In this document: positions 1,658 through 64,000 of the stretch, in pieces
Numbering within the stretch: position 1 is the first letter of the stretch
Layout of the letters: each line of letters opens with the position of its first letter
The notes under the pieces: model-generated
The model's database searches: none
Told to the model about the DNA's origin: nothing
What the model saw: the letters and a program-made list of their open reading frames with translations, nothing else
Assembly: GCA_951802115.1 (NCBI GenBank)
Contig: CATOPL010000001.1
Span: forward strand, 248,001 to 312,000
Direction: 5' to 3'
DNA length: 64,000 nucleotides
Source of the DNA: an uncultured Lachnospiraceae bacterium
Lineage (GTDB): Bacteria; Bacillota; Clostridia; Lachnospirales; Lachnospiraceae
Translations under genes and position numbers: made by a program

Positions 1658-1661
1658 CTGT

Positions 1662-5048: not shown

Positions 5049-5092
5049 GCTGTCCACCCCTTTGGTCAAATCCTGTATGATGTTCTTTTGAC

Positions 5093-5098
5093 AGTATA
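5093..5098 (-). promoter_or_regulatory. Probable extended -10 promoter of the J-TPR/hscC operon
   Basis: On the minus strand TGCTATACT gives a TATACT -10 box with a TG extension, about 45 nt upstream of the J-TPR start. No good -35 box is seen. The roughly 250 bases between here and the symporter stop (5344) show no other recognisable feature. Confidence 0.45.
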
Positions 5099-5343
5099 GC
5101 ACTTTTGGGACGTCTTGAGTAGAGAAAATTGGATAATACATCTTCCAAATACAGAATAAATCGCACCTTACGGGCAGTCTGCTCTTCCGGACCTCAAACC
5201 AACCGCCTATATGACGGTATATATAACGGAAAATGCCGCCAAAGATCAGCCATGCCGGAATCGGTGTCGTACAAACGCCGATTTCCAAAGCCGGACTGTC
5301 TTCTGCAGCATTTCCGCACAGACCAAACAGGTCCATATTTTCA

Positions 5344-6708: not shown

Positions 6709-6784
6709 ATTCCTTTTCCTCCTGTACGAATACGCTGCCCATGAAAAAAGTTCCGCACTCTTTACTCTGCAGAAAAAATTCCGT

Positions 6785-6813
6785 ACAAAAAGCTGCCGAT
6801 TCATTCGGCAGCT
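6785..6813 (-). terminator. Intrinsic terminator in the glycine riboswitch leader
   Basis: A perfect 9-bp stem (AGCTGCCGA / TCGGCAGCT) with a 5-nt loop is followed on the minus strand by TTTTTGT. It lies between the aptamer and the symporter start codon, so it is the probable expression platform. Whether glycine turns it on or off cannot be decided by eye. Confidence 0.8.
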
Positions 6814-6904
6814 CCGGAAAATCAATCACCCCGCAGCAAGCTGTAGGGGCAACTTGCAGCGCAGCAGAACAGTGAGATATTGGCTCTCACGTTCTTCTAT
6901 AAGT

Positions 6905-7045
6905 CTGCTCTGTCCTTTTTGCCTGAGAGATTCAGCATTTTGCCTTGCACCTTCGGCACCCAGTCAATCTCCCCCAACATCAGACGGGCATCTGATTGCC
7001 GCCCGGCCGCCGCAGAGAAGATCATTATGGGATTCTCCAGAGTTT
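6905..7045 (-). ncRNA. Glycine riboswitch (gcvT element) upstream of AGCS symporter
   Basis: On the minus strand the conserved core is present in order: AACTCTGGAGA, a paired arm ATCTTCTC/GGGGAGAT, GGGTGCCGAAGGTGCAA, AATCTCTCAGGCAAAA and GGACAGAG. These match the glycine aptamer consensus, with GGAGA pairing to TCTCT as P1. Only one complete aptamer is recognisable; the upstream bases (to about 7080) contain ACCGGAGG but no convincing second aptamer, so a singlet with a degenerate partner is likely. An AGCS symporter downstream is a known target class. Confidence 0.85.
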
Positions 7046-7136
7046 CCTCGACCTCCGGTCCGACATTCGCCGTTCCGCAGGCTTCTATGGATACTTTCAT
7101 CATGTATATGGTCTATTATAGATTGTACCGTACACT

Positions 7137-7165
7137 AGTATAATTGGATTCTCAGGGAATGTCAA
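7137..7165 (-). promoter_or_regulatory. Sigma-A type promoter of the glycine riboswitch/symporter
   Basis: Minus strand TTGACA (7160-7165), 17-bp spacer, TATACT (7137-7142). It predicts a leader of roughly 420 nt before the symporter start, containing the riboswitch and terminator. Confidence 0.75.
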
Positions 7166-7185
7166 TTCTTTTATCTTCATAACAT

Positions 7186-8715
7186 CTATTTCATAGACGC
7201 CACTCTGTCAAATTCATCTCTGATTTCCTGAGAGGGTTCCCTGGTAGACAGGCTGACCGCCACATTCACTGCCAAAGCCACCAGAAATGCCGGCAGAAGT
7301 TCATAAATACCCAGAACCCCTCCCATGGGGCGAATCAGAAATTTCCACACAAACACCATGATTCCTCCGCTGATCATTCCTGCCAGCGCCCCCTGCAGAT
7401 TAGACCGCTTCCAGAACAGAGCCAGCAGCACCAACGGACCAAAAGACGCCCCGAATCCTGCCCAGGCAAAAGAAACAATCTGAAATACCGAACTGTTGGA
7501 GTCCCTTGCGATAAACATACCGATCACTGCAATGATCAGTACCGTGATACGGGCCACCATCATCCCCGTTTTCTCGTTCATATCCTTTACAAAAACTTCT
7601 TTCAAGATGTTCTGAGATGCGCTGGAAGATGCGGCTAGAAGCTGAGAATCTGCCGTAGACATCGTAGCTGCCAGAATTCCTGCCAGAATCACGCCCGCTA
7701 CCAGAGCCGCCAGAACCCCATGCGTGGAAATCAGATCCGCAATCGTAATAATAATGGTTTCGGAATCTTCCAGAGCCGGAATCGCTCCCACCGCCGTCAT
7801 GGCATTTCCGACCACGCCAATAAAAATAGCTACTGCCATGGAGATCACAACCCATACTGTGGCAACTCTCCTTGAAAGATCCAGTTTTTTCGCATCCTCA
7901 ATCGCCATGAAGCGCAGCAGAACATGAGGCATGCCAAAATATCCAAGTCCCCATGCCAGCATGGAAGCGATATTCAGCGCTCCATATGGCGTTGCCGTCC
8001 CTGCTGCCGGATCATGAATCTGAGTCAGGCTGAAATATCCAGCCATGGTTTTAGCATTGTCCACTACCGCGCCAAAACTTCCCACATTATGAATGCCGAA
8101 ACCAAGGACAACAATAATGGCAATCGTCATAATAATACTCTGCAGGAAATCCGACGTACTTGCCGCCCAGAAACCGCCCAGTGTCGTATAGGCGACGATA
8201 ACAATAGCGCTGACAACCATAGCAGGTACATAATCCCAGCCGAACAGGCTGGAAAAAAGCTTGCCACAGGCTGCAAAGCCAGAGGCCGTATAGGGCACAA
8301 AAAAGATGATAATTAACACAGCGGCAATCACTGACAGAATCTTTTTCTCATCCCGGTAACGATTGGAAAAAAACAGCGGCAGAGTCGTGGAATTGCCGCA
8401 TTCATGGGTGTAGTAACGAAGCCTCCTTGCCACAATCAGCCAGTTTACATACGTTCCAAAAGCGAGACCAATCGCCGTCCAGGCCGCATCGGCGAGGCCG
8501 GTCACATACGCAACACCCGGCAATCCCATTAAAAGCCAGCTGCTCATATCCGATGCCTCTGCACTCATAGCAGTAACAAATGGCCCCAGCTTCCTTCCTC
8601 CCAGATAAAAGTCTTCAGTTGTATGGTTTCTTTTGGCAAGAACTGCGCCCATTCCCACAACCACCGCCAGATAGACGACAATCGCCAAAAGCATCAGTAA
8701 GTTTGCAGATGTCAT
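7186..8715 (-). CDS. putP: Sodium/proline symporter (SSS family, PutP-like)
   Basis: Na+:solute symporter of about 509 residues with roughly 13 hydrophobic segments. The N-terminus has the family pattern DFYLGGRKLGPFVTAMSAEA and SSWLLMGLPG, as in PutP proline carriers, and the length fits PutP. The ATG at 8715 is preceded by GGGAGA. The gene has its own TTGCAT-17-TAGAAT promoter, with a 10-bp-arm palindrome just upstream, next to a TetR gene on the same strand. Proline is the best-guess substrate from similarity to PutP; other SSS substrates are not excluded. Confidence 0.9.
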   Translation of the reverse strand: MTSANLLMLLAIVVYLAVVVGMGAVLAKRNHTTEDFYLGGRKLGPFVTAMSAEASDMSSWLLMGLPGVAYVTGLADAAWTAIGLAFGTYVNWLIVARRLRYYTHECGNSTTLPLFFSNRYRDEKKILSVIAAVLIIIFFVPYTASGFAACGKLFSSLFGWDYVPAMVVSAIVIVAYTTLGGFWAASTSDFLQSIIMTIAIIVVLGFGIHNVGSFGAVVDNAKTMAGYFSLTQIHDPAAGTATPYGALNIASMLAWGLGYFGMPHVLLRFMAIEDAKKLDLSRRVATVWVVISMAVAIFIGVVGNAMTAVGAIPALEDSETIIITIADLISTHGVLAALVAGVILAGILAATMSTADSQLLAASSSASQNILKEVFVKDMNEKTGMMVARITVLIIAVIGMFIARDSNSSVFQIVSFAWAGFGASFGPLVLLALFWKRSNLQGALAGMISGGIMVFVWKFLIRPMGGVLGIYELLPAFLVALAVNVAVSLSTREPSQEIRDEFDRVASMK

Positions 8716-8785
8716 AACTTTATTCTCCCTCTCATTCTGTTTTTGTTCTGCTTGAAAAAGTGCTGATTTTTCGCACTGTTTCTGC

Positions 8786-8814
8786 ATTCTAACACAAGAC
8801 AGAACAGGATGCAA
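8786..8814 (-). promoter_or_regulatory. Promoter of putP
   Basis: Minus strand TTGCAT (8809-8814), 17-bp spacer, TAGAAT (8786-8791). It sits about 70 nt upstream of the putP start codon, immediately downstream of a palindrome. Confidence 0.6.
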
Positions 8815-8817
8815 TAC

Positions 8818-8841
8818 AGAATAAAGTACAGACTTTATTCT
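8818..8841. promoter_or_regulatory. Palindrome at putP promoter, candidate TetR operator
   Basis: AGAATAAAGT and ACTTTATTCT are perfect 10-base inverted arms with a 4-base spacer. The palindrome lies 3 bp upstream of the putP -35 box and 4 bp after the tetR stop. There is no T-tract on either strand, so an operator is more likely than a terminator. Confidence 0.55.
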
Positions 8842-8845
8842 AATT

Positions 8846-9430
8846 CTATGCTTTCAGACTTTGAAGCATCAGCGGCAGCTTTTTTTCCGCCTCCTCCGAA
8901 AGGGAATATTCCCCTTTACGCAGGCACCATTCATAAAGCAGCGCCCGTTCACACATGGCGTAATAACGAACCATCTCACTGACGCCAAGCTCTCTGGTCA
9001 GTTGTTCGTTCTCTCTGCCTCTGCTTATAATTTTTCTCAGAAGCCGATAGTAAGTACGGTCGTGATCCAGAAGAGGCTTTTCTCCCCTGGTTGTAAGCTG
9101 AGTAGAATAAAGCTCTGTCAGCAGTTCGCGATTAATCGATTCCTCAATCATGATCATCAGTTCACGATTCAGATGCAACAACACTTCATAGCAATCTGAA
9201 TCTTCTGATATCCCCGGCTCCAGTTCTTCATATTTTTCATCCATCATATAGGCCAGTGAGCCAAGAAGCGCGTCTTTTCCTTCAAAATAATGGTAGAAGG
9301 AGCCTTTTGATGTTCCGGATGCTTCTATGATTTCTTCTATCGTTGTATCCTCATACCCCTGTTCATAAAACAGCTTCCATGCCGCTGACACGATCCTGCT
9401 CTTTGTTTTTCTCTGATTCCTTTTCGCCAT
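8846..9430 (-). CDS. TetR/AcrR family transcriptional regulator
   Basis: Regulator of 194 residues with the typical N-terminal TetR helix-turn-helix: SRIVSAAWKLFYEQGYEDT, then TIEEIIEASGTSKGSFYHYF. The remaining roughly 140 residues form a helical ligand-binding domain without diagnostic motifs. It lies directly upstream of putP on the same strand, with a palindrome and a putP promoter between them, so control of putP is the simplest inference. The ligand is unknown. Confidence 0.9.
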   Translation of the reverse strand: MAKRNQRKTKSRIVSAAWKLFYEQGYEDTTIEEIIEASGTSKGSFYHYFEGKDALLGSLAYMMDEKYEELEPGISEDSDCYEVLLHLNRELMIMIEESINRELLTELYSTQLTTRGEKPLLDHDRTYYRLLRKIISRGRENEQLTRELGVSEMVRYYAMCERALLYEWCLRKGEYSLSEEAEKKLPLMLQSLKA

Positions 9431-9477
9431 AATCCAATTCCTGCTTTCTGCTGTATAAAATAGTTTTGCTGTTTTTA

Positions 9478-10680
9478 TTAATCTGAAAATTCTGCCAGCA
9501 AATGCGGAAACATGGAAATACTCCTCCTCAGGATCCCATGAATATGTGCGATCGCCACTCCATAATTCGTCATGGGAACTCCCTGGTCAGAGGCACATTT
9601 CATCCGATAGCGGACCTCTCTCTCATTCAGCATACAGCCTCCGCAGTGCAGTACCACAGCATAAAGAGAAAGTTCCTCCGGAAACTCTGTGCCGGAGCAA
9701 AACGAAAAAGAAAGATTTTTTTTCGTATATTCTTGTATCCATCTGGGCAGCTTCACTGTTCCAATATCTTCACACTGCCTGTGATGCGTGCAGCCCTCTG
9801 CTATCAGAATCTGGTCACCATCCTCAAGACGGTCAAGTGCGGCAGCTCCTGGCACTGTGTAATCCAGAATTCCTTTGTAGCGTGCCATCAGGATGGAAAA
9901 AGAAGTCAGAGGAACAGAAACCGGCGTATCCTCCGACACCCGCCCAAACGCCTGGCTGTCAGTGACCACAAGGGAAGGAGTCTTTCCCAAATCGGCAAGC
10001 GTTTCCTTCAGTTCTGTTTCTTTTACGACCACCGCCACAGCTCCCGCGTCGATCACATCCCGGATCACCTGCTGCTGTGGAAGAATCATCCGTCCCTTTG
10101 GAGCGGCCGAATCAATCGGCGTCACCAAAACCACAAAATCCCCCTCAGAAATCAGATCGGCAACCAGGCGGTTCTCTCCTTCCTTCGGAGACAGAGAGCC
10201 AAGTCGTTCTTTCAATTCGCGAATCCCTGTTCCTTCTACTGCGCTGACATATAGTTTTTCTGACTCATGTGCCGGATATTTTTCCAGAAGATCTGATTTA
10301 TTCAAAACTACCAGATAAGGAATGTCCTTTTCCTGAAACAAAGATAAAAGTTCTTCTTCACAGACACCAATCCCTTCCTGTGCATCCACTACAAGAACCG
10401 CAATATCCGTTTTATTCAATACCTGCCTGGTCTTTTTCACGCGCAGCGCTCCAAGACTTCCCTCATCATCATATCCGGGCGTATCGATCATAACTACCGG
10501 CCCCAGCGGAAGGAGTTCCATAGATTTTAAAACCGGATCCGTGGTTGTCCCCTTTGTATCTGACACCACCGCCAGTTCCTGCCCTGTCACTGCATTGACA
10601 ACGCTCGATTTCCCCGCATTTCTCCTGCCGAAAAAGCCAATGTGCACCCGATTTGAACCTGGTGTATCATTCAGACTCAT
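9478..10680 (-). CDS. hydF: [FeFe]-hydrogenase H-cluster maturation GTPase HydF
   Basis: Scaffold GTPase of about 400 residues that carries and delivers the 2Fe subcluster to HydA. The N-terminal Era-like GTPase domain shows GRRNAGKSS (Walker A), a DTPG motif and NKSD. The C-terminal FeS-binding domain has the HydF signature: CTHHRQCEDIG and, about 50 residues later, HCGGC. The ATG at 10680 is preceded by GAGGAGAGG; the longer open frame upstream is discarded. HydE, HydG and the hydrogenase are not in the window, so this is an isolated maturation gene. It implies hydrogen metabolism in an anaerobe. Confidence 0.95.
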   Translation of the reverse strand: MSLNDTPGSNRVHIGFFGRRNAGKSSVVNAVTGQELAVVSDTKGTTTDPVLKSMELLPLGPVVMIDTPGYDDEGSLGALRVKKTRQVLNKTDIAVLVVDAQEGIGVCEEELLSLFQEKDIPYLVVLNKSDLLEKYPAHESEKLYVSAVEGTGIRELKERLGSLSPKEGENRLVADLISEGDFVVLVTPIDSAAPKGRMILPQQQVIRDVIDAGAVAVVVKETELKETLADLGKTPSLVVTDSQAFGRVSEDTPVSVPLTSFSILMARYKGILDYTVPGAAALDRLEDGDQILIAEGCTHHRQCEDIGTVKLPRWIQEYTKKNLSFSFCSGTEFPEELSLYAVVLHCGGCMLNEREVRYRMKCASDQGVPMTNYGVAIAHIHGILRRSISMFPHLLAEFSD

Positions 10681-10968
10681 AATCCTCTCCTCTCTGTACT
10701 GCTCCGCGCATGATTGTTCTTTGTCGAATCCCCCCTGGAGCATATACATTCTTCTCATATGAGTATTATAAAAAATTTTTATACACAATACAACCCTTGA
10801 ATTTTCCGGCTTCCTCCTCTCGTGCGGACCTGCTGCAGTTCCGAAATCTGTAATGCAAATCAAAAAGTATACTTATTGAACTACGGATGCTTGTTCTAAT
10901 TACTAACATTAAATATTTTATTATTATTTGTTATGTGTTAAAATTCAGTCAGACAGGGAGGAAGTTAT

Positions 10969-11533: not shown

Positions 11534-11965
11534 TTATACTTCCAGCTCTGAAGTGCAGTGCGGGCATCTGCTTGCTTTCATATCAATCTCCGACATACAG
11601 TACGGACACGTTTTGGTAGTCGGAGCTGCCGGAGTTTCCTCTGTTTTTTTAATCACCTTGTCCTTTGCCGCATTCAGCAGTTTTACAATGCAGAAAACAA
11701 CCAGTGCAATCAGCAGAAAATTGATAACCGCCGACATGAAAGAACCATATTTCAGTTCAGCCGCATTTTCTCCGATTCCAAAAGAAACCGACATTCCGGC
11801 AATATCAAGCCCTCCGGTGACGATCGAAAGCAGCGGCATGAAAATGTCATTGACCAGTGAGTTTACAATCGCTGTAAATGCGCCGCCGATGATCACACCA
11901 ACTGCCATATCCATTACATTTCCTCTGGATATAAACTTTTTAAACTCGTTAAAAAAATTCTTCAT
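11534..11965 (-). CDS. mscL: Large-conductance mechanosensitive channel MscL with zinc ribbon
   Basis: Osmotic safety valve of the cell membrane, 143 residues. The N-terminal amphipathic helix and TM1 read FKKFISRGNVMDMAVGVIIG, TM2 is near residues 78-98, and the C-terminal helix is present. After it comes CPYCMSEIDMKASRCPHC, a two-CxxC zinc ribbon that most MscL proteins lack. The zinc ribbon may be a regulatory or oligomer-stabilising add-on (inference). Confidence 0.95.
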   Translation of the reverse strand: MKNFFNEFKKFISRGNVMDMAVGVIIGGAFTAIVNSLVNDIFMPLLSIVTGGLDIAGMSVSFGIGENAAELKYGSFMSAVINFLLIALVVFCIVKLLNAAKDKVIKKTEETPAAPTTKTCPYCMSEIDMKASRCPHCTSELEV

Positions 11966-12043
11966 CTGTATTTAACCTTTTGATCCTTCCCATATCAGAG
12001 CATATTTGAAAATTGCTTCCCGCCGGTTGTATGTCGCAATTTG

Positions 12044-12274
12044 TATGTTTTTTGATAAATACAACCGTCAACCAGGACGCCTGCCATGGTCAACTATTTC
12101 TTCCAGCCCCCGCTTACGCTTAGTGAAGGGACACAGCGGTACTAAGGGCGCAAAACACGCGCCCTAAGGACCGGTGCCCTTCAAATGAGGCTTAAAGAAA
12201 TAGTTGACCATGACAAGCTGTATGTTGGCAAATTTACAAGACAATTTACTTATAAATGAAAGTCAATAAGTATA
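12044..12274 (+). repeat. Structured intergenic repeat, copy A
   Basis: This 231-base element is closely matched at 21044-21302 and, inverted, at 12285-12546. It begins TATGTTTTTTGATAAATAC and ends AAGTCAATAAGTATA. Inside, 18-base perfect inverted arms (12085-12102 and 12195-12212, core GGTCAACTATTTCTT) enclose nested stems, including AGGGCGC/GCGCCCT and AAGGG...CCCTT. No open frame or transposase is present. Compared with copy C it lacks a segment of about 44 bases containing a small CCCAC/GTGGG hairpin. It lies between mscL and copy C. Confidence 0.85.
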
Positions 12275-12284
12275 GGTTTTAATT

Positions 12285-12546
12285 TATACTTACTAAAAAT
12301 ATTATTTTATAAATTACCAATGTACAGCCAGCATGGACAGTTGTTCCTTTTAGACCTATTTGAAGGGCGCTGGTCCTTAGGACGCGTACTTTTGCGTCCT
12401 TAGTACCACTGCGTCCCTTGTAATGAGGAGGGGCCCACGAAGTGGGAGGAGTCCTGATTGCCTTCACTAAGCACAAGCGGGGTCTGGAAGGAACAACTGT
12501 CCATAGCAGGCGTCCAAACGGGCGAATGTTTTTATCAAAACCTATA
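12285..12546 (-). repeat. Structured intergenic repeat, copy C (inverted)
   Basis: Read on the minus strand it begins TATAGGTTTTGATAAAAAC and ends TTTTTAGTAAGTATA. The outer arms ATGGACAGTTGTTCCTT are 17-base perfect inverted repeats (12488-12504 and 12333-12349). Their sequence differs from copies A and B, yet pairing is kept. The inner stem AGGACGC/GCGTCCT differs from A by paired changes. It contains both optional modules that A and B each lack one of. It is tail-to-tail with copy A, 10 bases apart. Bases 12547-12646 beyond it show nothing recognisable. Confidence 0.85.
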
Positions 12547-12646
12547 AGATCTGGTCCAAATAAATGCGGCGCGGCGGGCTACGTCAAATGAATTCGGAGC
12601 AAATATAACCGCAAATCGGGACATGAAGACGGCAACAAATAAATCT

Positions 12647-12835
12647 TCAGACACGCTCTAATGCATCTTTATAGATCAGACACGCGGCATTATTCGGGCA
12701 TTTTTCATAATTGCAGTCAAATTCCATCATCTTCAGAGTTCCGTCCTCCTGCCGTTCGTACTCACATGCCACGGTTCTTGTTTCATTATTGCTCCGGCAG
12801 AATCCGCTGATAAATGCTTCTATGATCTCTCCCAT
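12647..12835 (-). CDS. Small cysteine-containing protein, function unknown
   Basis: Predicted protein of 62 residues. Visible features are five cysteines (GFCR, VACEY, FDCNYEKCP, AACLIY) and an acidic overall character; there is no signal peptide or membrane segment. The AGAGGAATTAAG ribosome site before the ATG supports a real gene. It follows glyA on the same strand by about 105 bases. The cysteine spacing could bind a metal, but no family is recognised. Confidence 0.6.
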   Translation of the reverse strand: MGEIIEAFISGFCRSNNETRTVACEYERQEDGTLKMMEFDCNYEKCPNNAACLIYKDALERV

Positions 12836-12940
12836 CTTAATTCCTCTTTTTATCTGTTTTCACTGTCTGCCGTCAATACAAGCCAGCGTTTTTCAGAGCA
12901 TCAGTCTCTGTACGCAGAGACTGATTTACCCTTTTATTTC

Positions 12941-14182
12941 CTACATGCTAAGCGGATATTTTTCCGTCAGGCCGCGGATCAGCTCTTTCGCTTTTGGCGC
13001 GGCGGACTCTCCTTCTTTCAGCATCATGGCAATCGCCTCCGCGATCGTCTCCATGTCTGTTTCATTTAATCCTCTGCTTGTTACGGCTGCCGTTCCAAGA
13101 CGTACGCCGCTGGTCACAAAGGCAGAACGCGGATCATTGGGAATCGTGTTTTTATTCGCCGTAATATTCGCCATATCCAGCAGATTTTCCGCATCCTTAC
13201 CCGAAATATTAAGATTTGTCAGATCCATCAGCATCAGATGATTATCTGTTCCCCCTGATACAATCTTAATCCCGCGGTCCATAAGATTTTTACAGAGCGC
13301 TTTCGAATTTTTCACAATACCGCGCTGATATTCCTTGTAAGCATCTGTCTGGCACTCTTTCAGACATACGGCTTTTGCCGCAATCACATGCATCAGCGGA
13401 CCGCCCTGAATACCGGGGAATACTGCCTTATTAAAGTTAAACTTCGCTGCCGTCTCTGCATCTGACATGATCATGCCGCCTCTCGGTCCGCGCAAGGTTT
13501 TGTGCGTAGTGGTCGTCGTCACATGAGCATACGGAATCGGGCTGGGATGTACTCCCGCCGCCACCAGTCCTGCTATATGCGCAATGTCCACCATCAGATA
13601 TGCGCCTGACTCATCGGCAATTTCCCGGAATTTTTTAAAATCGATCGTTCGTGCATAGGCGCTTGCTCCCGCCACAATCAGCTTCGGACGGCATTCCAGC
13701 GCAATACGGCGCACCTCTTCATAATCAATAACTCCATCGGCATTGACGCCATACTGATGCACTTCAAAATATTTTCCCGACATATTTGCAGGACTTCCAT
13801 GGGACAGATGGCCTCCATGCGCCAGATTCATACCCAGAACCCGCTCCCCTGGCTCAAGCATGGCAAAAAAGACCGCCATATTCGCCTGCGCGCCGGAATG
13901 AGGCTGCACATTCACGTATTCGCAGCCAAACACTTCCTTTGCTCTTTTGATCGCGAGATCCTCTACCACATCAACGCATTCACATCCGCCGTAATATCTC
14001 TTTCCGGAATATCCTTCTGCGTACTTATTCGTTAAAGGACTGCCCATGGCAGCCATTACTGCTTTACTTACCCAGTTCTCTGACGCAATCAGTTCAATAT
14101 GGCTGTTCTGTCTCGCCATCTCATCGTTAATGGCCGCTGCAACCTCTGGGTCGGCTGCTTTCACTTCATCCAATGAATACAT
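12941..14182 (-). CDS. glyA: Serine hydroxymethyltransferase
   Basis: PLP enzyme that interconverts serine and glycine with tetrahydrofolate, supplying one-carbon units in the cytosol. Length 413 residues, as usual. Motifs seen: [10 protein letters not shown], the [12 protein letters not shown] segment, and [17 protein letters not shown] with the PLP-binding lysine. The ATG at 14182 is preceded by AGGAGGAACTT. It appears to be monocistronic or co-transcribed with the small downstream gene. Confidence 0.97.
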
Positions 14183-14244
14183 AAGTTCCTCCTGTCATCG
14201 TCATCTGTTTTTCTCTCAAAGACATTTGTTTTTTCACAACCATC

Positions 14245-14273
14245 ACTTTAACATGGTTACTTATATTTTTCAA
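14245..14273 (-). promoter_or_regulatory. Probable glyA promoter
   Basis: Minus strand TTGAAA (14268-14273), 17-bp spacer, TAAAGT (14245-14250), about 60 nt upstream of the glyA start. An AACCAT...ATGGTT inverted repeat overlaps it. No riboswitch was recognised in the leader. Confidence 0.4.
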
Positions 14274-14418
14274 CCTTTTTTCAGCCTTTCCCAAAACTAT
14301 TATTTTTAAACCTTCTTTTTGCGGCTATTTTTTTAAATTCCTTTCCATCCTCCCCGGTTTCTGTTATGATAAAGAAGGTTTATGACGTCTGACTGCAATC
14401 TTCAGAAAGGAGTGGTCT

Positions 14419-57096: not shown

Positions 57097-58947
57097 CTAT
57101 CGTATTTCGATCGGAAGCAGTGACTGCACGGAGATTTCGATCTCCACCACTGCTCCTCCCTGACTGTATTGTTTCATTTTTCCATTCATTTCATCCACAA
57201 TCACAGATTCGATTACCATCATCCCAATACCTGTATTCTGTGAGTTCTGACAGGTCTTATTCATAAACCCTTTCCCGTTATCTCTGTATTGAATTCTGAC
57301 AAACCGGTCCTCCAATGCCCTGCTGACCTGAATCCTGATCTCCAGATTTCTTTTATGCTCATTATGCTTGATGCTGTTGTTGATCAGTTCATTAATAACC
57401 ATCGCAATCGATATCACTTTTGAATACGGGATCAAAATTTCATCAAGTGTCAGATAAAGTTTCGCACGGCTCTGATAAAAATCATTGATTTTATGAATGA
57501 TACGGGAAAGACTGTAAATGCCTGTATTTCCGGCAGGATTTGTCAAAAGCTTGTGAATTCCCGCAATACAGCTGATCCTGCTGATATTACTGGAAAAGAT
57601 CGCATCAATTTCTTTCATGGTTTCTTCATCCAGATCCTTGTTGCAGATAACCAGCTTTTCCATTTCCAGAAGACTTACAATAATCTGCAGATTATTCATA
57701 ATCCTGTGATGCCCTTCCTGCAGAAGAAGCGAATTTTCCCGCTGCTGCATCCTTTCCATAGACAGCACCATTTCATCCGCAATCCACCTGGTCATTATGG
57801 TAATATACTCCATATCCGCATCTGCCTTCTGAAAATCAATCTGCAGTACCAAAAGATTATCATCTCCTACCTGCACTGCATAACACGCAGACAGTTCATG
57901 ATCTGCATATCCGTCAAAATACCTGTTAAAGTCAGGATCGCTCTTTTTAAAAAAAGACACCGCATCCTTCTGGCTGTCCGCACACTTCAGAAGCATCTTC
58001 TTGTTCAGCAACGTAATCCGTTCTCTTTCTTCCGCCTCCATACCGCTGACTGCCACAACATCCGTCACCGTTTTCTGCGCTGCGCTGACCAGAACCGCCG
58101 CCACCGCTTTGGCCTGTAACTCCATTTTTAAATATTCAGAAAACATTCCGACCGCTTTTTTATAGTTGTGATTGCTGGATACCATTTTGACGCTGTGTTT
58201 TATGTTCTGCAAAGCAATCAGCCCTTTTTTGAATCTCCGGTTGTCCAAAAGACTCTGATGCGAACTCACACACAGATCATATATCCGCCCCGGATCGTTG
58301 CTGACTTCCTGTGCCGTGAACGTTTTTATATAATTTCCTTCAAGCACCACGCTGACATCGCTGTTTAAACGAACTGCCTCTTCCCATTGATTTGTCAAAT
58401 ACACCACCGTGGTTCCCTGCTCATTCAAGATCTGCAGAACCTCTACAAGTTTATAGAACAACGGCGCAGACAGAATGCTGTTTAATTCTCTGATCACAAG
58501 CAGCTTTGGCCTCTGATATACCGCTCTTAAGATTTCCACAACCTTACACTGTTCCACCGTCAGTTCCCTGACGGAAGCATCCAGATCAATTTCAAATTTG
58601 GTCTCCTGCAGAAGGCTTCTGAACATTTTTTTTCTTTTCCCGCGTGTCGCTTTATGACGACATGAATCTGTAAAAATATTTTCCCCGACATTCATATTGG
58701 GAAACACATTGTTGGCGGCCGTAATAAAACAACAGTACCGACGTACAAATTTTTTGTCAAGCTTCACTCCGTCATATTCGATGGTCCCTTCTGTCAGACG
58801 TCTTTTCTGCATAAACACTTCTGTCAATTCATCAAAAAATGTGCTGTTCGTGCATAGTATGACTCTTCTTGTACAGGCGTCCTGCTCAAACTGAAAATGA
58901 CGGATGATATCTCCAGATTCACTCGAAATTTTATTGATCGTAAACAC
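57097..58947 (-). CDS. Soluble histidine kinase with pseudo-ABC (RbsA-like) N-terminus
   Basis: Protein of 616 residues, no membrane segment. Residues 1-225 align with a sugar-importer ATPase (RbsA type): NVFPNMNVGENIF, ELTVEQCKVVEIL (signature-like), LLVIRELNSILS (Walker B-like), VVYLTNQWEEAV. All catalytic points are degenerate: no Walker A glycines/lysine, no Q-loop Gln, Asp of Walker B is Arg, H-loop His is Asn. Residues about 260-395 look like a GAF-type module. A HisKA_2 phospho-acceptor region (EGHHRIMNNLQIIVSLLEME, His413/414) and a HATPase domain follow (NELINNSIKH, RDNGKGF, TGIGM). The start is GTG at 58947 after AGGACC. It is 9 bases after the ANTAR regulator gene, its evident partner. 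Its likely input is the state of a sugar ABC transporter (inference). Confidence 0.85.
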   Translation of the reverse strand: MFTINKISSESGDIIRHFQFEQDACTRRVILCTNSTFFDELTEVFMQKRRLTEGTIEYDGVKLDKKFVRRYCCFITAANNVFPNMNVGENIFTDSCRHKATRGKRKKMFRSLLQETKFEIDLDASVRELTVEQCKVVEILRAVYQRPKLLVIRELNSILSAPLFYKLVEVLQILNEQGTTVVYLTNQWEEAVRLNSDVSVVLEGNYIKTFTAQEVSNDPGRIYDLCVSSHQSLLDNRRFKKGLIALQNIKHSVKMVSSNHNYKKAVGMFSEYLKMELQAKAVAAVLVSAAQKTVTDVVAVSGMEAEERERITLLNKKMLLKCADSQKDAVSFFKKSDPDFNRYFDGYADHELSACYAVQVGDDNLLVLQIDFQKADADMEYITIMTRWIADEMVLSMERMQQRENSLLLQEGHHRIMNNLQIIVSLLEMEKLVICNKDLDEETMKEIDAIFSSNISRISCIAGIHKLLTNPAGNTGIYSLSRIIHKINDFYQSRAKLYLTLDEILIPYSKVISIAMVINELINNSIKHNEHKRNLEIRIQVSRALEDRFVRIQYRDNGKGFMNKTCQNSQNTGIGMMVIESVIVDEMNGKMKQYSQGGAVVEIEISVQSLLPIEIR

Positions 58948-58956
58948 GCTTTGGTC

Positions 58957-59541
58957 CTACCCTCCAAATTTATTGTTCGCACTGATAATTTCCTGTGCAA
59001 CAATCTCTATTTTTTCTCTCCTTTTTTTAGCCATATTCTGCAGCCGTTTCATCGCCTCGCTTTCCTTTACTCCAAATTCGTCCATCAAAATTCCCTTTGC
59101 ACGCTCGATATCCTTCCTGTTTTTAAGAGCCATTTCGCTCTTTTCTGCTCTCTGGCATTCCTCGATATAAGCCTCCGCCCGGCTCCATGCAATGTTGATC
59201 CCTGCCGCAAGAGCCTCTCTTGTAACCGGCTTCATCATATAACCGAATACACACTGACAGTTTGCCTTCACAATCAGATCGTCATCAAAATATCCAGTAA
59301 TCACAATAGTAGGAATCATTTTTTCCAGACAGGCCTCTCTGACGACAGTCAAACCGTCTTTGCCAGGAATATTGATATCAACCAGTACCATATCCGGGAC
59401 TGTTTTCCTGATTCTGTCCACAGCAGACAATCCCTCGACTGCTTTTCCCGCCACCTCGTTCCCCATTGCCTCAATAAACAAACAAATGCTCCGAAGAATA
59501 ATGGCTTCATCTTCAACAACGAAAATTCTCAGCTTTTTCAT
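58957..59541 (-). CDS. ANTAR-domain response regulator (antiterminator)
   Basis: Regulator of 194 residues. The receiver domain (1-120) has VVEDEA, phospho-acceptor Asp in MVLVDINIPGKDG, Thr in VITGYF and Lys in MMKPVT. A short coiled segment leads to an ANTAR RNA-binding domain (NRKDIERAKGILMDEFG, SEAMKRLQNMAKKRREKI). Such proteins (EutV, AmiR, NasR) bind paired hairpins in nascent RNA and prevent termination. The start follows AGGAGGATTTTC. Probable partner: the HisKA_2 kinase encoded next. Target hairpins are probably in the operon leader, outside the window. Confidence 0.94.
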   Translation of the reverse strand: MKKLRIFVVEDEAIILRSICLFIEAMGNEVAGKAVEGLSAVDRIRKTVPDMVLVDINIPGKDGLTVVREACLEKMIPTIVITGYFDDDLIVKANCQCVFGYMMKPVTREALAAGINIAWSRAEAYIEECQRAEKSEMALKNRKDIERAKGILMDEFGVKESEAMKRLQNMAKKRREKIEIVAQEIISANNKFGG

Positions 59542-59569: not shown

Positions 59570-59606
59570 GTAAACTATTATACCACATCTTCGCTTGATA
59601 GTTTAC
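59570..59606 (-). promoter_or_regulatory. Internal promoter and inverted repeat before the two-component pair
   Basis: Minus strand TGGTATAAT is an extended -10 (TATAAT) about 35 nt upstream of the regulator start. It is flanked by perfect 9-base inverted arms GTAAACTAT (59598-59606) and ATAGTTTAC (59570-59578), the first overlapping the stop codon of the upstream isomerase gene. No convincing -35 box. Confidence 0.5.
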
Positions 59607-60394
59607 TGCTTCTTTTCCCATATCGGCAAAACGCTGCGTATCATTGAGTCGAAGCGTGACGCTTCCCAGGCGCTTCTTCCAATAAACAGGCCATCAATAT
59701 TTTTCATTCTGATCAGCTCCGGCGCGTTATCAGGATTCACGCTGCCTCCATAAAGAATCGGAATCCGGTCTCCGTTTTCTTTACCGAACAGCTCTGTCAG
59801 ACACGCGCGGATCACCCCATGCTTTTCCTGAGCATATTCCTTTGATGCCGGCACTCCGTCAACGCCGATCGCCCACACAGGTTCGTAGGCGATCCACAGC
59901 CTTTTGCTCTTCTCCCCGGACACGCCCCGCAGACCAAGCTTTAACTGGCTGCGAAGTATTTCATCAGAAATCCCTGTTTCTTTTTCCTTCCTGGTCTCAC
60001 CGATACAAAGCAACGGCGTAAACCCATGGAGAAGCGCACAGAGCACCTTCCTGTTTTCCATATCGTCTGTCTCACCGAGAACATGACGGCGCTCTGAATG
60101 ACCAATCATTACGATCTCTGCGCCCACTTCTTTCAGCATCAGAGGTGAAATCTCACCGCTGAACTGTCCTTCCTCTTCCCAACCCATATTCTGCGCACCC
60201 AAACGGATCCGACCTGAAGCAACGCACTTTTTTGCTTCCTGCAGCGTTGTAAATGAAGGAAGCACAAATAATTCCAGATTCTCTCTGCCGATATCTTTTG
60301 TGTGCCTGTCCAATTCTGTCAGAAAGGTTCTCGTATCTGCGATTGTCTTGTACATTTTGGTATTCGTTCCAAGATACAGTTTTTTCAGCTTCAT
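59603..60394 (-). CDS. Triosephosphate-isomerase-like tetrulose-phosphate isomerase (EryH type)
   Basis: TIM-barrel protein of 263 residues. Catalytic parts are present: the N-terminal lysine in LGTNTKMYKT, MIGHSERRHVLGE, AYEPVWAIGVDG and LYGGSVNP. GTNTKMYKT (not GNWKMN), GAQNMGWEEEGQFSGEISP and the ending IDGLFIGRSAW resemble EryH (L-erythrulose-1-phosphate isomerase) more than glycolytic TpiA. It is next to an EryI-like RpiB, the same pair as in erythritol catabolism. The subfamily call is by remembered motif resemblance. Confidence 0.85.
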   Translation of the reverse strand: MKLKKLYLGTNTKMYKTIADTRTFLTELDRHTKDIGRENLELFVLPSFTTLQEAKKCVASGRIRLGAQNMGWEEEGQFSGEISPLMLKEVGAEIVMIGHSERRHVLGETDDMENRKVLCALLHGFTPLLCIGETRKEKETGISDEILRSQLKLGLRGVSGEKSKRLWIAYEPVWAIGVDGVPASKEYAQEKHGVIRACLTELFGKENGDRIPILYGGSVNPDNAPELIRMKNIDGLFIGRSAWEASRFDSMIRSVLPIWEKKQ

Positions 60395-60411: not shown

Positions 60412-60849
60412 TCAGCGGGCCAGATCATACTCATGATAGCGGGCGAATTTGGGAGCAGAAGAGGACTCGGGATCAAAAGTACACGCCAACCATACTTTCA
60501 ATAATTCTTCTGCCAGCTTTTCCCCGATCGTAAATGCTCCTATACAGGCAATATTGGCATTATTGCTAAGCGCTGCGCGCTGTGCAGAATAAACATCTGT
60601 CAGCAGTGCGGCATATGCGCCTTTTACTTTATTTGCCGCAATGCTCATGCCCAGGCCTGTTCCGCAGACGAGTACGCCGCGGTCTCCCTTTCCCGCCGCA
60701 ACCGCCTCCGATACTTTAATCGCAACATTTGCATAAACCGGATCGCTGCTTCCCATGTCAATCACTTCATGTCCAAGAGTTTCAACTGCCTTTATCAGCT
60801 TATATTTTAATTCATCCGCATTGGGATCGCACCCAAAAAGTAATTTCAT
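60412..60849 (-). CDS. RpiB/LacAB-type sugar-phosphate isomerase (EryI-like)
   Basis: Isomerase of 145 residues. RpiB-fold motifs: VLVCGTGLGMSIAANKVKG (active-site Cys and phosphate loop) and SAQRAALSNNANIACIGAF. Asp-Pro at the N-terminal CDPNAD replaces the RpiB CDHAG pattern; VYANVAIKVSEAV and TFDPESSSA are like EryI/DerI, which convert D-erythrulose-4-phosphate to erythrose-4-phosphate. It is 17 bases upstream of the EryH-like gene; the ribosome site is TGGAGG. Confidence 0.87.
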   Translation of the reverse strand: MKLLFGCDPNADELKYKLIKAVETLGHEVIDMGSSDPVYANVAIKVSEAVAAGKGDRGVLVCGTGLGMSIAANKVKGAYAALLTDVYSAQRAALSNNANIACIGAFTIGEKLAEELLKVWLACTFDPESSSAPKFARYHEYDLAR

Positions 60850-60929: not shown

Positions 60930-62168
60930 TCAATGTTTCCTTTTTTTATCTTCCAACAGAATATTCGCCAAAACCATCGCCAGCGCATACAGCATGGCAA
61001 GCATCATGATTACACTCTGATAACTGCCGGTGGAATCATAGATAAATCCAAAAACAGTACCGGCTGTTCCTGCTATGATCCCTCCCAGCAAAACAACATT
61101 TGCATTGATTCTCTCGTAATCCTCTGAATCCCCAAATACCTCGTAACACATGGCAGTTGTTTCAATCAGCCCGCATTTCAGAGCAATACCAAACAAAAAT
61201 CCAAGCATATAAATCATTTCCAGCGGCGGATGTTCTATAAATCTCAGGCAAAGCGATGCCGCAATCCCTATACCGGTACACAGAAACGTCGAATTTCTGA
61301 CCCCGATTTTTTCATTCAAAAAGCTCAGTCCAACTCTTGACACAAGACCTCCGAAATGACACACTGAGGCAAATACTGCTCCCAGCGCAGCTGAAAGTCC
61401 CAGGGTTTTTCCATAATTTCCCAGATGATTCTGCATTCCCACACAATACTGAATGGCAATCAGATAAAGTACTGCCAGATAAAACTTCTTCGCACGCCAT
61501 GCTGATTTCACAGTAAGGTCGCAACCGCCGGCTGCATGTTTTTTCTCTGCTGCAGTCCATCCGCAGCCAGTGTTTTCATAAGGCTGCAGACCGATTGATT
61601 CAGGCCCTTCTTTCATAATTAGCACCGTACCGACAGCTCCGGCTGCAAGGACATACACTGCCAGACATCTGTATGCCGCACGCCACCCTGCAGAATATGT
61701 AATCGCGCCTGCCATGGGAGTAAACAGCACTCCCCCCAGCATGGAAGCTGTAATAAATATCCCCAAAACAAATTCTCCTTTGTCCCGGAACCATCTTTTT
61801 ACGATAACCGTAGGAAGTACATAGATAAAACATGCTACTCCAAAACTCTCCATAAATCCTGCCCCGATCATCATATAAATATTCTCCGACAGAGAATACA
61901 GCAGCAGCCCGCACGCCTGGATAAGTAGAAATATGCAAAGCAGCTTCCTGACTGAATATTTTTGAAAAAGTCCTGCGCAAAGAGGCGTGACGAACATCGC
62001 TGCAAACGGCCCGATAGAATACATAAAGGAAACTGTTGTAACACTTACTCCCAGGCTCTCCGCTACCGGCAGTAAAAATACGCTGGGCACCGTTAACTGC
62101 GCTCCTATTCCAACTGTCATCAGACACGAAAAAAACGCAACGATCCACGCATAATGTATTCTCTTCAA
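60930..62168 (-). CDS. MFS transporter
   Basis: Major facilitator of 412 residues with 12 hydrophobic segments in the classical 6+6 layout. The start codon is TTG (62168), supported by AAGGAACCGGAT. The N-terminus HYAWIVAFFSCLMTVGIG is like oxalate/formate antiporter-type MFS members. It probably takes up or exchanges the substrate or an acid product of this operon; specificity is not visible. Confidence 0.88.
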   Translation of the reverse strand: MKRIHYAWIVAFFSCLMTVGIGAQLTVPSVFLLPVAESLGVSVTTVSFMYSIGPFAAMFVTPLCAGLFQKYSVRKLLCIFLLIQACGLLLYSLSENIYMMIGAGFMESFGVACFIYVLPTVIVKRWFRDKGEFVLGIFITASMLGGVLFTPMAGAITYSAGWRAAYRCLAVYVLAAGAVGTVLIMKEGPESIGLQPYENTGCGWTAAEKKHAAGGCDLTVKSAWRAKKFYLAVLYLIAIQYCVGMQNHLGNYGKTLGLSAALGAVFASVCHFGGLVSRVGLSFLNEKIGVRNSTFLCTGIGIAASLCLRFIEHPPLEMIYMLGFLFGIALKCGLIETTAMCYEVFGDSEDYERINANVVLLGGIIAGTAGTVFGFIYDSTGSYQSVIMMLAMLYALAMVLANILLEDKKRKH

Positions 62169-62270: not shown

Positions 62271-63407
62271 TCAGATTTTAACCCAGGCTCTCTTTTTTTT
62301 GGATTCTCTTACTGCATCGCATACTTTGATGACTTCCAGTGCATCACAGAAATCCGGTGTATACTTGGTGCCGTTTACACATGCATTAACTGCCTCGTAA
62401 GCCTGGAACGACATGCAGTCCACCACACCAACGCCAAATCCCGCCAGAGGCGGAACTGCTTGTCCATAAGGATGAGCCGGTCCCATCAGAATCGATTTTG
62501 TTCCGTCTGTCTCCGGATCTTTGGTATTCAAAGCCAGCTGGAATACAGACGGATTTGCTCCGGACCAGCGCACCATACCTTTGGTTCCGCAAACTTCAAA
62601 GGAGATATCCTCGCCGGCTCCGGCATATGCACTGGACTGATACAACGTCGCGGTGACGCCGGATTTCATCCTGGCAATGATCATGGACATATCTTCCGCA
62701 TCCCGTTCATGCCGGACCGGTTCCCCGCCGTCTTTGGAAGCCTCAAAAGCTTCATTCCAGAATACTTCCGTTGTTCCGACTACTTCGTCATACTGATCAT
62801 CCAGAATAAACCTGCACATGTCGACAATATGACTGCAGGAATCCGCGAATCCGCCGCCGGTCAGGATATTGCTTCTGAAAGTATAATATTTTGCAAATTC
62901 ATCGCCGCCTCCCTGAAGATATCTTCCATTGTAGGTCAGTGGAGTTCCGATCACTCCGTCTTTGATCAGTTTTCTGGCAAAATTCACGGCCGGCCAGCGC
63001 CTCTTGTTGAAAGCCACCGCAGAACGTCCATGATATTCTTTTGTGGCTGCAACCAGTTTTTCACAGTCTTCCACGGTTGTGGTCAGCGGTTTTTCAGACA
63101 TTACAAATTTTCCCGCTTTCATGGCTTCAATGGCAATCTCCGAATGCAGATTGGGCGGCACACAGATATCAACGATATCAATATCATCTCTTGCGATTAC
63201 TTCTTTCCAGTCTGTACACCACTCTTCATATCCCCACTGTTCCGCGTTTTTCCGGACCGCCGTTTCATTGATGTCACAGATCAGTTTTTTTACGGGAACC
63301 GCCGCGATATCCGGAAAAATCACCGGCGCCAGCGAGTACGCTTTAGAATGCTCGCTGCCCATAAAACCCACACCAATCAAAGCTACATTAACTGTTTTTC
63401 TGCCCAT
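62271..63407 (-). CDS. Gfo/Idh/MocA family oxidoreductase
   Basis: NAD(P)-dependent sugar or polyol dehydrogenase of 378 residues. Rossmann motif VALIGVGFMGSEHSKAY at the N-terminus, the conserved MSEKPLTTT (EKP) near residue 100 and GGGFADSCSHIVDMCRFI with the catalytic histidine. The operon context (sugar-binding protein, EryH- and EryI-like isomerases) points to oxidation of a polyol or sugar entering the pathway. The exact substrate is unknown. Confidence 0.92.
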   Translation of the reverse strand: MGRKTVNVALIGVGFMGSEHSKAYSLAPVIFPDIAAVPVKKLICDINETAVRKNAEQWGYEEWCTDWKEVIARDDIDIVDICVPPNLHSEIAIEAMKAGKFVMSEKPLTTTVEDCEKLVAATKEYHGRSAVAFNKRRWPAVNFARKLIKDGVIGTPLTYNGRYLQGGGDEFAKYYTFRSNILTGGGFADSCSHIVDMCRFILDDQYDEVVGTTEVFWNEAFEASKDGGEPVRHERDAEDMSMIIARMKSGVTATLYQSSAYAGAGEDISFEVCGTKGMVRWSGANPSVFQLALNTKDPETDGTKSILMGPAHPYGQAVPPLAGFGVGVVDCMSFQAYEAVNACVNGTKYTPDFCDALEVIKVCDAVRESKKKRAWVKI

Positions 63408-63438: not shown

Positions 63439-64000
63439 TTAATCCGACATTCCGATCGATTCGAAATATGCGAGTAATTCTTCTGCTCTTTTAAGGTCAA
63501 CTGTCTCTGCGTCAAATTCAATTTTCTCCGTATAGTTTACCAGGTCCAGCTCTCCGTCCGCATAAGGAGAGAGCAGATCGTCAAAGATGATGTCTGCGAA
63601 TGTTATCGCCGACTGCAGCACGGTACCGGCCAGCTCTCCGTCGATAACGGCCTGACAGCCTTCAGCCAGGCCGTTGATGCCGTAAATCTTAATCTTGGAA
63701 GTGTCTTTTCCATTGGTGACAAGAGACTCATATGCCCCCAGTGCCATACCGTCATCTTCCGCCATCACACCGTCAATCTGATCATAAGCCTGAATCCAGT
63801 CATCCATCAGAGCCATTGCTTTGGCTTTATCAAAGTCGGCATAAGAATCTGCAAGGACCTCAATGTCCGGACGCTCAGCCAGAAGTCCGTCCTCATAGCC
63901 GGCCCTGCGACCGGTTGAAGCGTCAATGCCCGCCATGCCCTGAAGAATTACGATCTTCGCATTCTCAGGAAGTTCTTTTGCCGCCTGCTGACCGGAAGCA
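63439..64000 (-). CDS. Sugar ABC transporter substrate-binding protein, 5' part outside window
   Basis: C-terminal 187 residues of a Peripla_BP_4-type (RbsB-like) binding protein: ILQGMAGIDASTGRRAGYED, IDGVMAEDDGMALGAYESL and GINGLAEGCQAVIDGELAGT. The signal peptide and N-lobe lie beyond the right edge. The ATG at 63936 is internal and not the start. It is the first visible gene of the operon; the cognate permease and true ATPase are expected upstream, outside the window. RbsB-type binding proteins pair with RbsA-type ATPases, the same family that gave rise to the N-terminus of the kinase at 57097. Confidence 0.88.
   Translation of the reverse strand, partial: ASGQQAAKELPENAKIVILQGMAGIDASTGRRAGYEDGLLAERPDIEVLADSYADFDKAKAMALMDDWIQAYDQIDGVMAEDDGMALGAYESLVTNGKDTSKIKIYGINGLAEGCQAVIDGELAGTVLQSAITFADIIFDDLLSPYADGELDLVNYTEKIEFDAETVDLKRAEELLAYFESIGMSD

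Follow-up and report, generated by a model that had tools for sequence, protein, structure and literature searches.

Domains of the kinase

The stretch of DNA analysed here (the window: 64,000 nucleotides of a contig of an uncultured Lachnospiraceae bacterium) encodes on its reverse strand a two-component system whose kinase carries, at its N-terminus, a degenerate domain related to the ATPase of RbsA-type sugar importers. This is an ATP-binding cassette (ABC) domain resembling the first of the two nucleotide-binding domains of RbsA (NBD1). The pair comprises the following features:

57097..58947, reverse strand: sensor kinase of 616 amino acids, GTG start, with RbsA-type ABC domain, GAF-like linker, HisKA_2 and HATPase_c (Pfam, NCBIfam, PDB sequence search)
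58264..58947, reverse strand: degenerate RbsA-NBD1-like domain, residues 1-228 (Pfam, NCBIfam, alignment, trees)
57733..58263, reverse strand: linker and GAF-like module, residues 229-405, strongly diverged (GAF matches in relatives; identities)
57100..57732, reverse strand: HisKA_2 dimerisation and phosphoacceptor domain (His414) and HATPase_c, residues 406-616, catalytic residues intact (Pfam, alignment)
58957..59541, reverse strand: response regulator with receiver (REC) and ANTAR domains, adjoining the kinase (Pfam Response_reg and ANTAR)

The initial annotation, made from the sequence alone, had described a soluble kinase with an RbsA-type N-terminus and an ANTAR partner, and the domain searches agree with it. 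Pfam places ABC_tran (PF00005) at residues 41-152, with 30.3 bits for a cut-off of 25. The best NCBIfam matches were a putative B6 importer ATPase, AraG, and the xylose and galactose importer ATPases; all matched through their NBD1, over query residues ~75-218, with scores far under the whole-protein cut-offs. Importer ATPases were also the top matches of the kinase in the PDB sequence search (best E 2e-7), and when a profile of three fusion sequences was compared with RbsA-type ATPases of the genus, residues 12-220 aligned at up to 105 bits. By these alignments, the N-terminal domain is homologous to the NBD1 of RbsA. Twenty other places in the window's genome matched the N-terminal part of the kinase at 20-29% identity, mostly within RbsA-like frames of ~500 amino acids.

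The C-terminal half contains HisKA_2 (residues 411-473) and HATPase_c (residues 513-606), and its key residues are intact. We aligned 17 kinases of the family described below, leaving out near-copies and the truncated L067, and found H414, N418, N519, E520, N524, D556, G558, G560 and G575 (N-box and G-boxes included) invariant in all 17. The phosphoacceptor Asp55 of the regulator was kept in 22/22 partner regulators aligned. No clear transmembrane segment was found in the window kinase, the top 19-residue hydropathy being 1.65 and located in the HATPase region. The module between the two halves had been called GAF-like, a label that appears right but weak: Pfam calls no GAF domain in the window kinase, and of five relatives scanned one (L051) has a match that passes the cut-off and three have a match under it. 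ABC_tran scored 77, 63, 33, 27 and 17 bits in these five relatives, the last value being below the cut-off.

Distribution of the fusion

We found 25 further fusion loci, all in the window's phylum or in genomes named as Bacillota, i.e., 26 loci in total. Judged by these sequences, the window kinase belongs to a family that is thinly scattered over Bacillota. The genome draws overlapped, and scoring in the large ones was limited to the three to five best candidates of each genome. Full-length fusions were present in 2/396 other genomes of the same family, 3/391 of the order, 1/244 of the class and 7/397 of the phylum. Two families containing members had them in 3/22 and 2/18 genomes, and there was no fusion in 16 other genomes of the genus. 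A scan of named genomes, the only search to cover phyla other than Bacillota, kept the best 80 loci of at least 548 relatives; these split into 14 fusions and 66 other HisKA_2 kinase loci, which served as controls. At least 14 fusions thus occur in named genomes, all Bacillota by title or taxonomy. Their hosts include Christensenella intestinihominis, Butyricicoccus faecihominis (two copies), Mesobacillus campisalis, Halalkalibacter urbisdiaboli, Halanaerobium congolense, Gracilibacillus halophilus, Claveliimonas bilis and Faecalicatena orotica. A scan of genome contigs with a single protein query returned no relatives, and the plasmids searched gave no match to the fusion.

Two pairs of loci are near-copies (L051 and L052, one residue apart; L054 and L056, three apart), which leaves 24 loci without near-copies. 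Loci met twice were counted once (L026 and L065, which have the same kinase; L055 and L056; L146, which is L057). Since the searches started from the full fusion, the presence of the ABC domain in all 26 loci is no argument for its function. Chance resemblance and assembly artefact can be ruled out, because the full-length fusion recurs in many genomes.

Two members deserve separate mention. The kinase frame of L155 (9066-10919, genome G1176) is interrupted by one TAG, leaving pieces at 9066-9515 and 9552-10919; the gene may be broken, the stop may be recoded, or the sequence may contain an error. Butyricicoccus faecihominis (L058 and L068) has two diverged pairs of fusion kinase and regulator ~28-29 kb apart on one contig, both among genes seemingly of sugar metabolism.

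State and ancestry of the ABC domain

The N-terminal domain had been described as a dead ATPase in which every nucleotide-handling residue is lost. This is nearly accurate for the window kinase, where the Walker-B Glu (E154) survives and Walker A, the Q-loop Gln, the Walker-B Asp and the H-loop His do not. It does not define the family. We first compared 18 fusions, without near-copies, with 44 RbsA NBD1 sequences. The fusions kept the Walker-A Lys in 2 cases, the Walker-A Thr in none, the Q-loop Gln in 8, the signature-region Gln in none, the Walker-B Asp in 3, the H-loop His in none and the Walker-B Glu in 16; the fold positions Gly61 and Asn101 were each kept in 17. Five sequences from the phylum search were then added (the broken L155 was left out), and the totals in 23 fusions became 7 for the Walker-A Lys, 6 for the Walker-B Asp, 21 for the Walker-B Glu and 1 for the H-loop His. 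The single His belongs to L154, which retains Walker A and Walker B as well, i.e., the full motif set within a fusion. L157, L158 and L067 retain Walker A and Walker B, and L156 retains Walker A. Decay of the ABC domain is, on these counts, graded across the family.

Counted over all Walker-A columns, catalytic residues show only a modest tendency to be lost preferentially: retention was 24% at 14 nucleotide-site columns and 40% at 31 other conserved columns (p 0.047). Taken one by one, however, the Lys, the Thr, the signature-region Gln, the Asp and the His are each nearly gone.

In the tree with the five added sequences, a clade of 19 mostly degenerate members (support 100/98) includes the window protein, and L154, L157, L158 and L067 fall outside it. 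The pseudo-ATPase is thus most simply read from the sequences as a derived condition. In the same tree, the RbsA NBD1s form their own side of a branch (97/100) with no fusion domain among them, which rules out that the domain is a recent copy of the adjacent RbsA. An earlier tree of 20 rows placed the fusion domains on one side (99/97). A single origin of the fusion domains was supported in that set, and was recovered in 12% of the bootstrap trees once the five sequences, ATP-competent forms included, had been added.

Association with importer genes

A location of the homologues mostly away from ABC sugar importer loci would have spoken against the reading of the initial annotation; it is not what we observed. 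We scored the flanks of the fusions with hidden Markov models built from six loci. The informative loci were 18 of a first set and six of a second; L061 and L067 had too little flanking DNA to judge. Genes for RbsA and/or the permease RbsC were nearby in 24/24 informative loci (22/22 without near-copies), and both were present in 21/24, with L057 and L064 showing one of them at a contig edge. RbsA was in the same locus in 22/24. The second set (L154-L159) was picked by the fusion profile alone, and its surroundings were inspected afterwards; at a looser threshold than that used for the genes around the first set, RbsA, RbsC and a binding-protein match were found in 6/6, the binding-protein scores being low in L159 (36 bits) and L154 (60 bits). 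An ANTAR regulator adjoins the kinase in 25/26 fusion loci; in the remaining one the contig breaks off. In L059, L063 and L066 the kinase diverges from the row of regulator and importer genes, whereas it is collinear with the row in the other loci that have a full set of these genes.

The 66 control loci had RbsA in one case and neither RbsC nor the binding protein RbsB in any. Fifty of them adjoin an ANTAR gene, 31 have more than 5 kb on both sides, and most are not from Bacillota. The 14 that are Bacillota by title, 12 of which adjoin an ANTAR gene, had no RbsA, RbsC or RbsB.

Two side observations concern single loci. The RbsA of Gracilibacillus halophilus (L063:6390-7912) is split into two adjacent open reading frames (6390-6953 and 6989-7912) and may be frameshifted. 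L026 has a ZMP/ZTP riboswitch (Rfam RF01750) at 11929-12007 on the forward strand, upstream of a pyruvate formate-lyase-like gene on the same strand (12121-14373).

An antiterminator-like RNA element in relatives

Tandem stem-loops lie upstream of the importer genes in the ten leaders that we inspected; the overlap of the second hairpin with a terminator arm was judged by eye. After this inspection we wrote a search pattern: a loop Y-N-A-N-G-R-N-N-R on a first stem of at least 5 pairs, a second such hairpin, then a U-tract. It matched 18 sites in 15/21 fusion loci (12/18 without near-copies) and one site in the 66 control loci. Ten dinucleotide-shuffled sets gave 0-2 sites each, with a mean of 0.3. 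Sites outside the ten leaders are those of L054/L056, L058, L051:11251 and L053:7928. In an alignment of 14 sites, 92% of the cells pair and 11/14 pairs changed on both sides, figures that overstate independence because the sites were chosen partly by the pairing of the first stem. We read the loops as 7 nt long, A being at position 2 and G at 4; if one U is bulged, a reading as hexaloops (A at 1, a purine at 4) would also fit. When 16 stretches from 16 fusion loci were scanned on one strand for the strict published pattern, a hexaloop with A1 and G4, there was no match, and a comparison of seven loci with Rfam gave no relevant match.

A model built from these sites (R1) matched 14/19 fusion loci, 13 of which are training loci or near-copies, and 0/14 Bacillota control loci. 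It also matched two places that were not among its training sites: L064:2367, immediately before RbsA, and L053:9039, immediately before the kinase. In 6/6 later loci, the best R1 match falls into the interval that separates the regulator from the importer genes, with E values of 8e-5, 3e-4, 1e-3, 3.5e-3, 0.04 and 0.07, the last two being weak. We also searched seven whole genomes with R1, scoring 150 of the 943 to 9484 first-look candidates per genome. At E 1, the fusion locus was the only match in five of them, G965 had one weak additional place (E 0.3) and G000 had nothing.

Some sites lie outside the leaders of importer genes. In L058, an antiterminator-like site at 9122-9179 (reverse strand) is on the strand opposite to the kinase and upstream of a divergent open reading frame (8226-9062), which suggests that the regulon may include a gene outside the importer row. 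In L053, sites at 7926-7976, 9039-9089 and 11645-11695 lie upstream of an aldolase-like gene (identified by eye), the kinase and RbsB, respectively; a small local regulon with autoregulation is probable from their positions.

Gene row and leader of the window

The kinase and regulator of the window belong to a row of genes on the same strand that extends beyond it. We followed the row in a stretch of the same contig that passes the window edge, L009, whose position p corresponds to window position p + 56499. Upstream of the regulator, all on the reverse strand, it contains:

59603..60394: triosephosphate-isomerase family enzyme (PF00121)
60412..60849: RpiB/LacAB-type isomerase (PF02502)
60930..62168: transporter of the major facilitator superfamily (MFS; PF07690)
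62271..63407: Gfo/Idh/MocA-type oxidoreductase (PF01408, PF22725, PF02894)
63439..64000: RbsB-type solute-binding protein, cut at the window edge (whole gene L009:6940-8001, i.e., window 63439 to 64500)
L009:8058-9110: RbsC, upstream of RbsB, beyond the window
L009:9040-10536: RbsA, upstream of RbsC, beyond the window
L009:10568-11206: Dak2, beyond the window
L009:11196-12209: Dak1, beyond the window
L009:12227-13183: AP_endonuc_2, beyond the window
L009:13164-14345: Beta-lactamase-family serine hydrolase, beyond the window, first gene of the row

The genes from the serine hydrolase to the kinase would form one operon. The operon had been thought to begin with RbsB, which was an effect of the window edge: six genes precede RbsB, and the first of them starts ~6.3 kb upstream of the RbsB gene start. 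The row unites the Dak1 and Dak2 kinase halves, RpiB, the triosephosphate-isomerase family enzyme, AP_endonuc_2 and Gfo/Idh/MocA with the RbsABC importer and the MFS transporter. This content probably points to tetrose or tetritol catabolism, and the sugar sensed here would probably be a tetrose, a tetrulose or a tetritol. We suppose a substrate of this type because Dak1/Dak2, RpiB and triosephosphate-isomerase-like genes share one row, and because of known erythrulose pathways.

With 16 pairs, the terminator-like stem in the leader of this row (L009:14421-14385) is longer than any other in the 18-kb stretch, and a promoter-like sequence at L009:~14530-14500 (reverse strand) was seen by eye and is absent from the computed list. 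Two hairpins just upstream of the terminator carry CAAUGGUUG and CUAUGAGAG (fold z -4.4), and the second overlaps the 5' arm of the terminator. With its filters off, R1 aligns to exactly these hairpins (14475-14422), but its score there is only 9 bits (E 0.24 in 2.5 kb) and a different place scored 9.8; a search of the window's genome with R1 gave no RNA element at E 1. The dual hairpin of the window's operon is a weak candidate, found by eye.

A sensor kinase coupled to an importer

The initial annotation had proposed a direct circuit from transporter to antitermination, in which the pseudo-ATPase docks on the permease or on the true ATPase. What it had observed is confirmed; its interpretation is partly supported. 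The circuit itself is well supported in relatives, where antiterminator-like RNA lies between the regulator and the importer genes, while physical docking of the ABC domain on the importer is plausible. On balance, and with considerable room for doubt, we favour an importer-coupled sensor kinase that would drive antitermination of the importer operon, its N-terminal domain docking on the cognate importer. The steps would be as follows. The domain, which descends from the NBD1 of an RbsA-type ATPase or a near relative, would dock most likely on the coupling loops of RbsC, the usual ATPase site, and less likely on RbsA. Sugar-bound RbsB, on loading the importer, would alter this contact, and the GAF-like linker would relay the change to the kinase, whose HisKA_2/HATPase part is intact. 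The kinase is expected from its family to phosphorylate the adjoining REC-ANTAR regulator. The regulator would then stabilise the dual hairpin before the importer genes, an element shown by comparison among relatives, thereby blocking the intrinsic terminator.

A more specific version, which we put forward tentatively, makes the kinase an ATPase mimic. Its dimer would offer two RbsA-like domains in place of the motor on the RbsC dimer, so that one and the same permease would work as a pump when joined by RbsA and as a sugar receptor when joined by the kinase, the signal going directly to the control of its own operon at the RNA level.

Docking is favoured because every informative locus encodes, close to the kinase, an importer of the same class as the domain, including the loci whose domain has lost nucleotide handling. 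This class match appears to be the strongest argument for docking.

Several observations weigh against this explanation. From gene adjacency and the RNA element one can tell what is probably regulated by the system, but not which component it contacts, and regulation alone would explain the adjacency. A tree-similarity test found no co-variation specific to the ABC domain with RbsA, RbsB or RbsC (partial r 0.05, 0.06 and -0.08), with weak power at n=12 loci. The window's genome has at least five other RbsA-type places, and generic docking would need extra specificity. The nearest ABC importer of L068 is of the amino-acid type, its two RbsC-like genes being 7.7-8.7 kb away; no RbsA was in range, the apparent match being a single ABC ATPase of 240 amino acids beside amino-acid-importer-like genes. 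L027 lacks much of the Walker-A half. As for the RNA, the loops differ from the published A1/G4 hexaloop, the count of R1 matches is not independent of its training loci, the model misses L057, L061 and L067 (short contigs) and L068, and its alignment to the window's own leader is the weak one given above.

The most serious alternative, which we nevertheless think rather unlikely, is that the GAF-like module is the true sensor, of a cytoplasmic sugar or sugar phosphate, and that the ABC domain is a leftover aiding dimerisation or folding in an ordinary soluble pair of kinase and ANTAR regulator. Regulation without docking would fully account for the adjacency and the RNA element, and a GAF domain is recognisable in four of the five relatives scanned. 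The Walker-A-bearing half of the ABC domain is the least conserved part of the family (23% mean identity), and several ABC domains sit on very long branches. Against it, the ABC domain is of the same class (RbsA) as an importer encoded close by in all informative loci. Moreover, the GAF-like part (residues 229-405) is the most diverged of the window kinase, with 13% mean identity to 16 relatives and a family mean of 31%, whereas the later ABC half (residues 61-228) has 24%. The ABC part is therefore not simply a relic.

We consider it quite improbable that the domain began as a sensor of nucleotides or energy, reporting charge to the kinase, with ATP binding lost later in most lineages, the window protein included. 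In its favour are the motifs retained in L154, L157, L158, L067 and L156, and the branching of the first four outside the clade of the window protein. Yet the Walker-A Lys is gone in 16/23 fusions and the H-loop His in 22/23, and ATP handling cannot be the shared function because the importer neighbourhood and the RNA element persist where these residues are lost.

Within the docking explanation, the variant in which the domain pairs with a nucleotide-binding domain of RbsA instead of the permease, and senses idle or engaged ATPase subunits, seems very unlikely: the domain is NBD1-like, the NBD1 of RbsA normally pairs with NBD2, and RbsA is nearly always in the locus, but no specific co-variation with RbsA was detected and the lost Walker A and signature-region Gln are the residues that form the sandwich between nucleotide-binding domains.

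Relation to known systems

To our knowledge, transporter-derived bacterial sensors are known mainly from binding proteins or whole permeases. AmiC-AmiR, for example, combines an ANTAR regulator with a binding-protein-derived sensor that holds the regulator directly. The fusion resembles the NBD1 of RbsA-type (CUT2) importer ATPases, with homology over residues ~12-220 and RbsABC genes close by; it differs from it in being a single domain, with most catalytic residues lost, joined to a kinase. In the open-access literature searched, no paper came up that describes a fusion of an ABC-ATPase domain with a histidine kinase.

EutW-EutV is likewise a kinase with a REC-ANTAR regulator, but the input of the fusion kinase is an ABC-ATPase homologue. 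EutV acts on dual hairpins, the second of which overlaps the terminator (PMC3369931, PMC8934654). The loops of the fusion loci have 7 nt (N-A-Y-G-R-N-N closed by U-G or C-G), as opposed to the A1/G4 hexaloop published for EutV.

NasS-NasT also has an ANTAR regulator under a sensor related to an ABC importer component: NasS is homologous to proteins of ATP-dependent nitrate transport and devoid of a signal peptide (PMC5424462). NasS derives from a binding protein and holds its regulator directly, whereas the fusion is an ATPase subunit co-opted onto a histidine kinase. XylFII-LytS and CuaD-CuaSR are clostridial two-component systems of sugar uptake with a binding protein as co-sensor (PMC10384115); there the binding protein contacts an extracellular kinase domain, and the passages on these systems mention no ATPase-derived domain.

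The family places the domain of a motor ATPase on a histidine kinase, and its graded decay, from apparently intact to pseudo-ATPase, offers a series on the change from enzyme to sensor. It would add an importer-derived sensor to the ANTAR systems, beside NasS, and the dual hairpin may serve as a marker of the regulon. Direct signalling from importer to RNA becomes testable in laboratory Bacillota. The finding suggests that the cell may listen to its pump directly.

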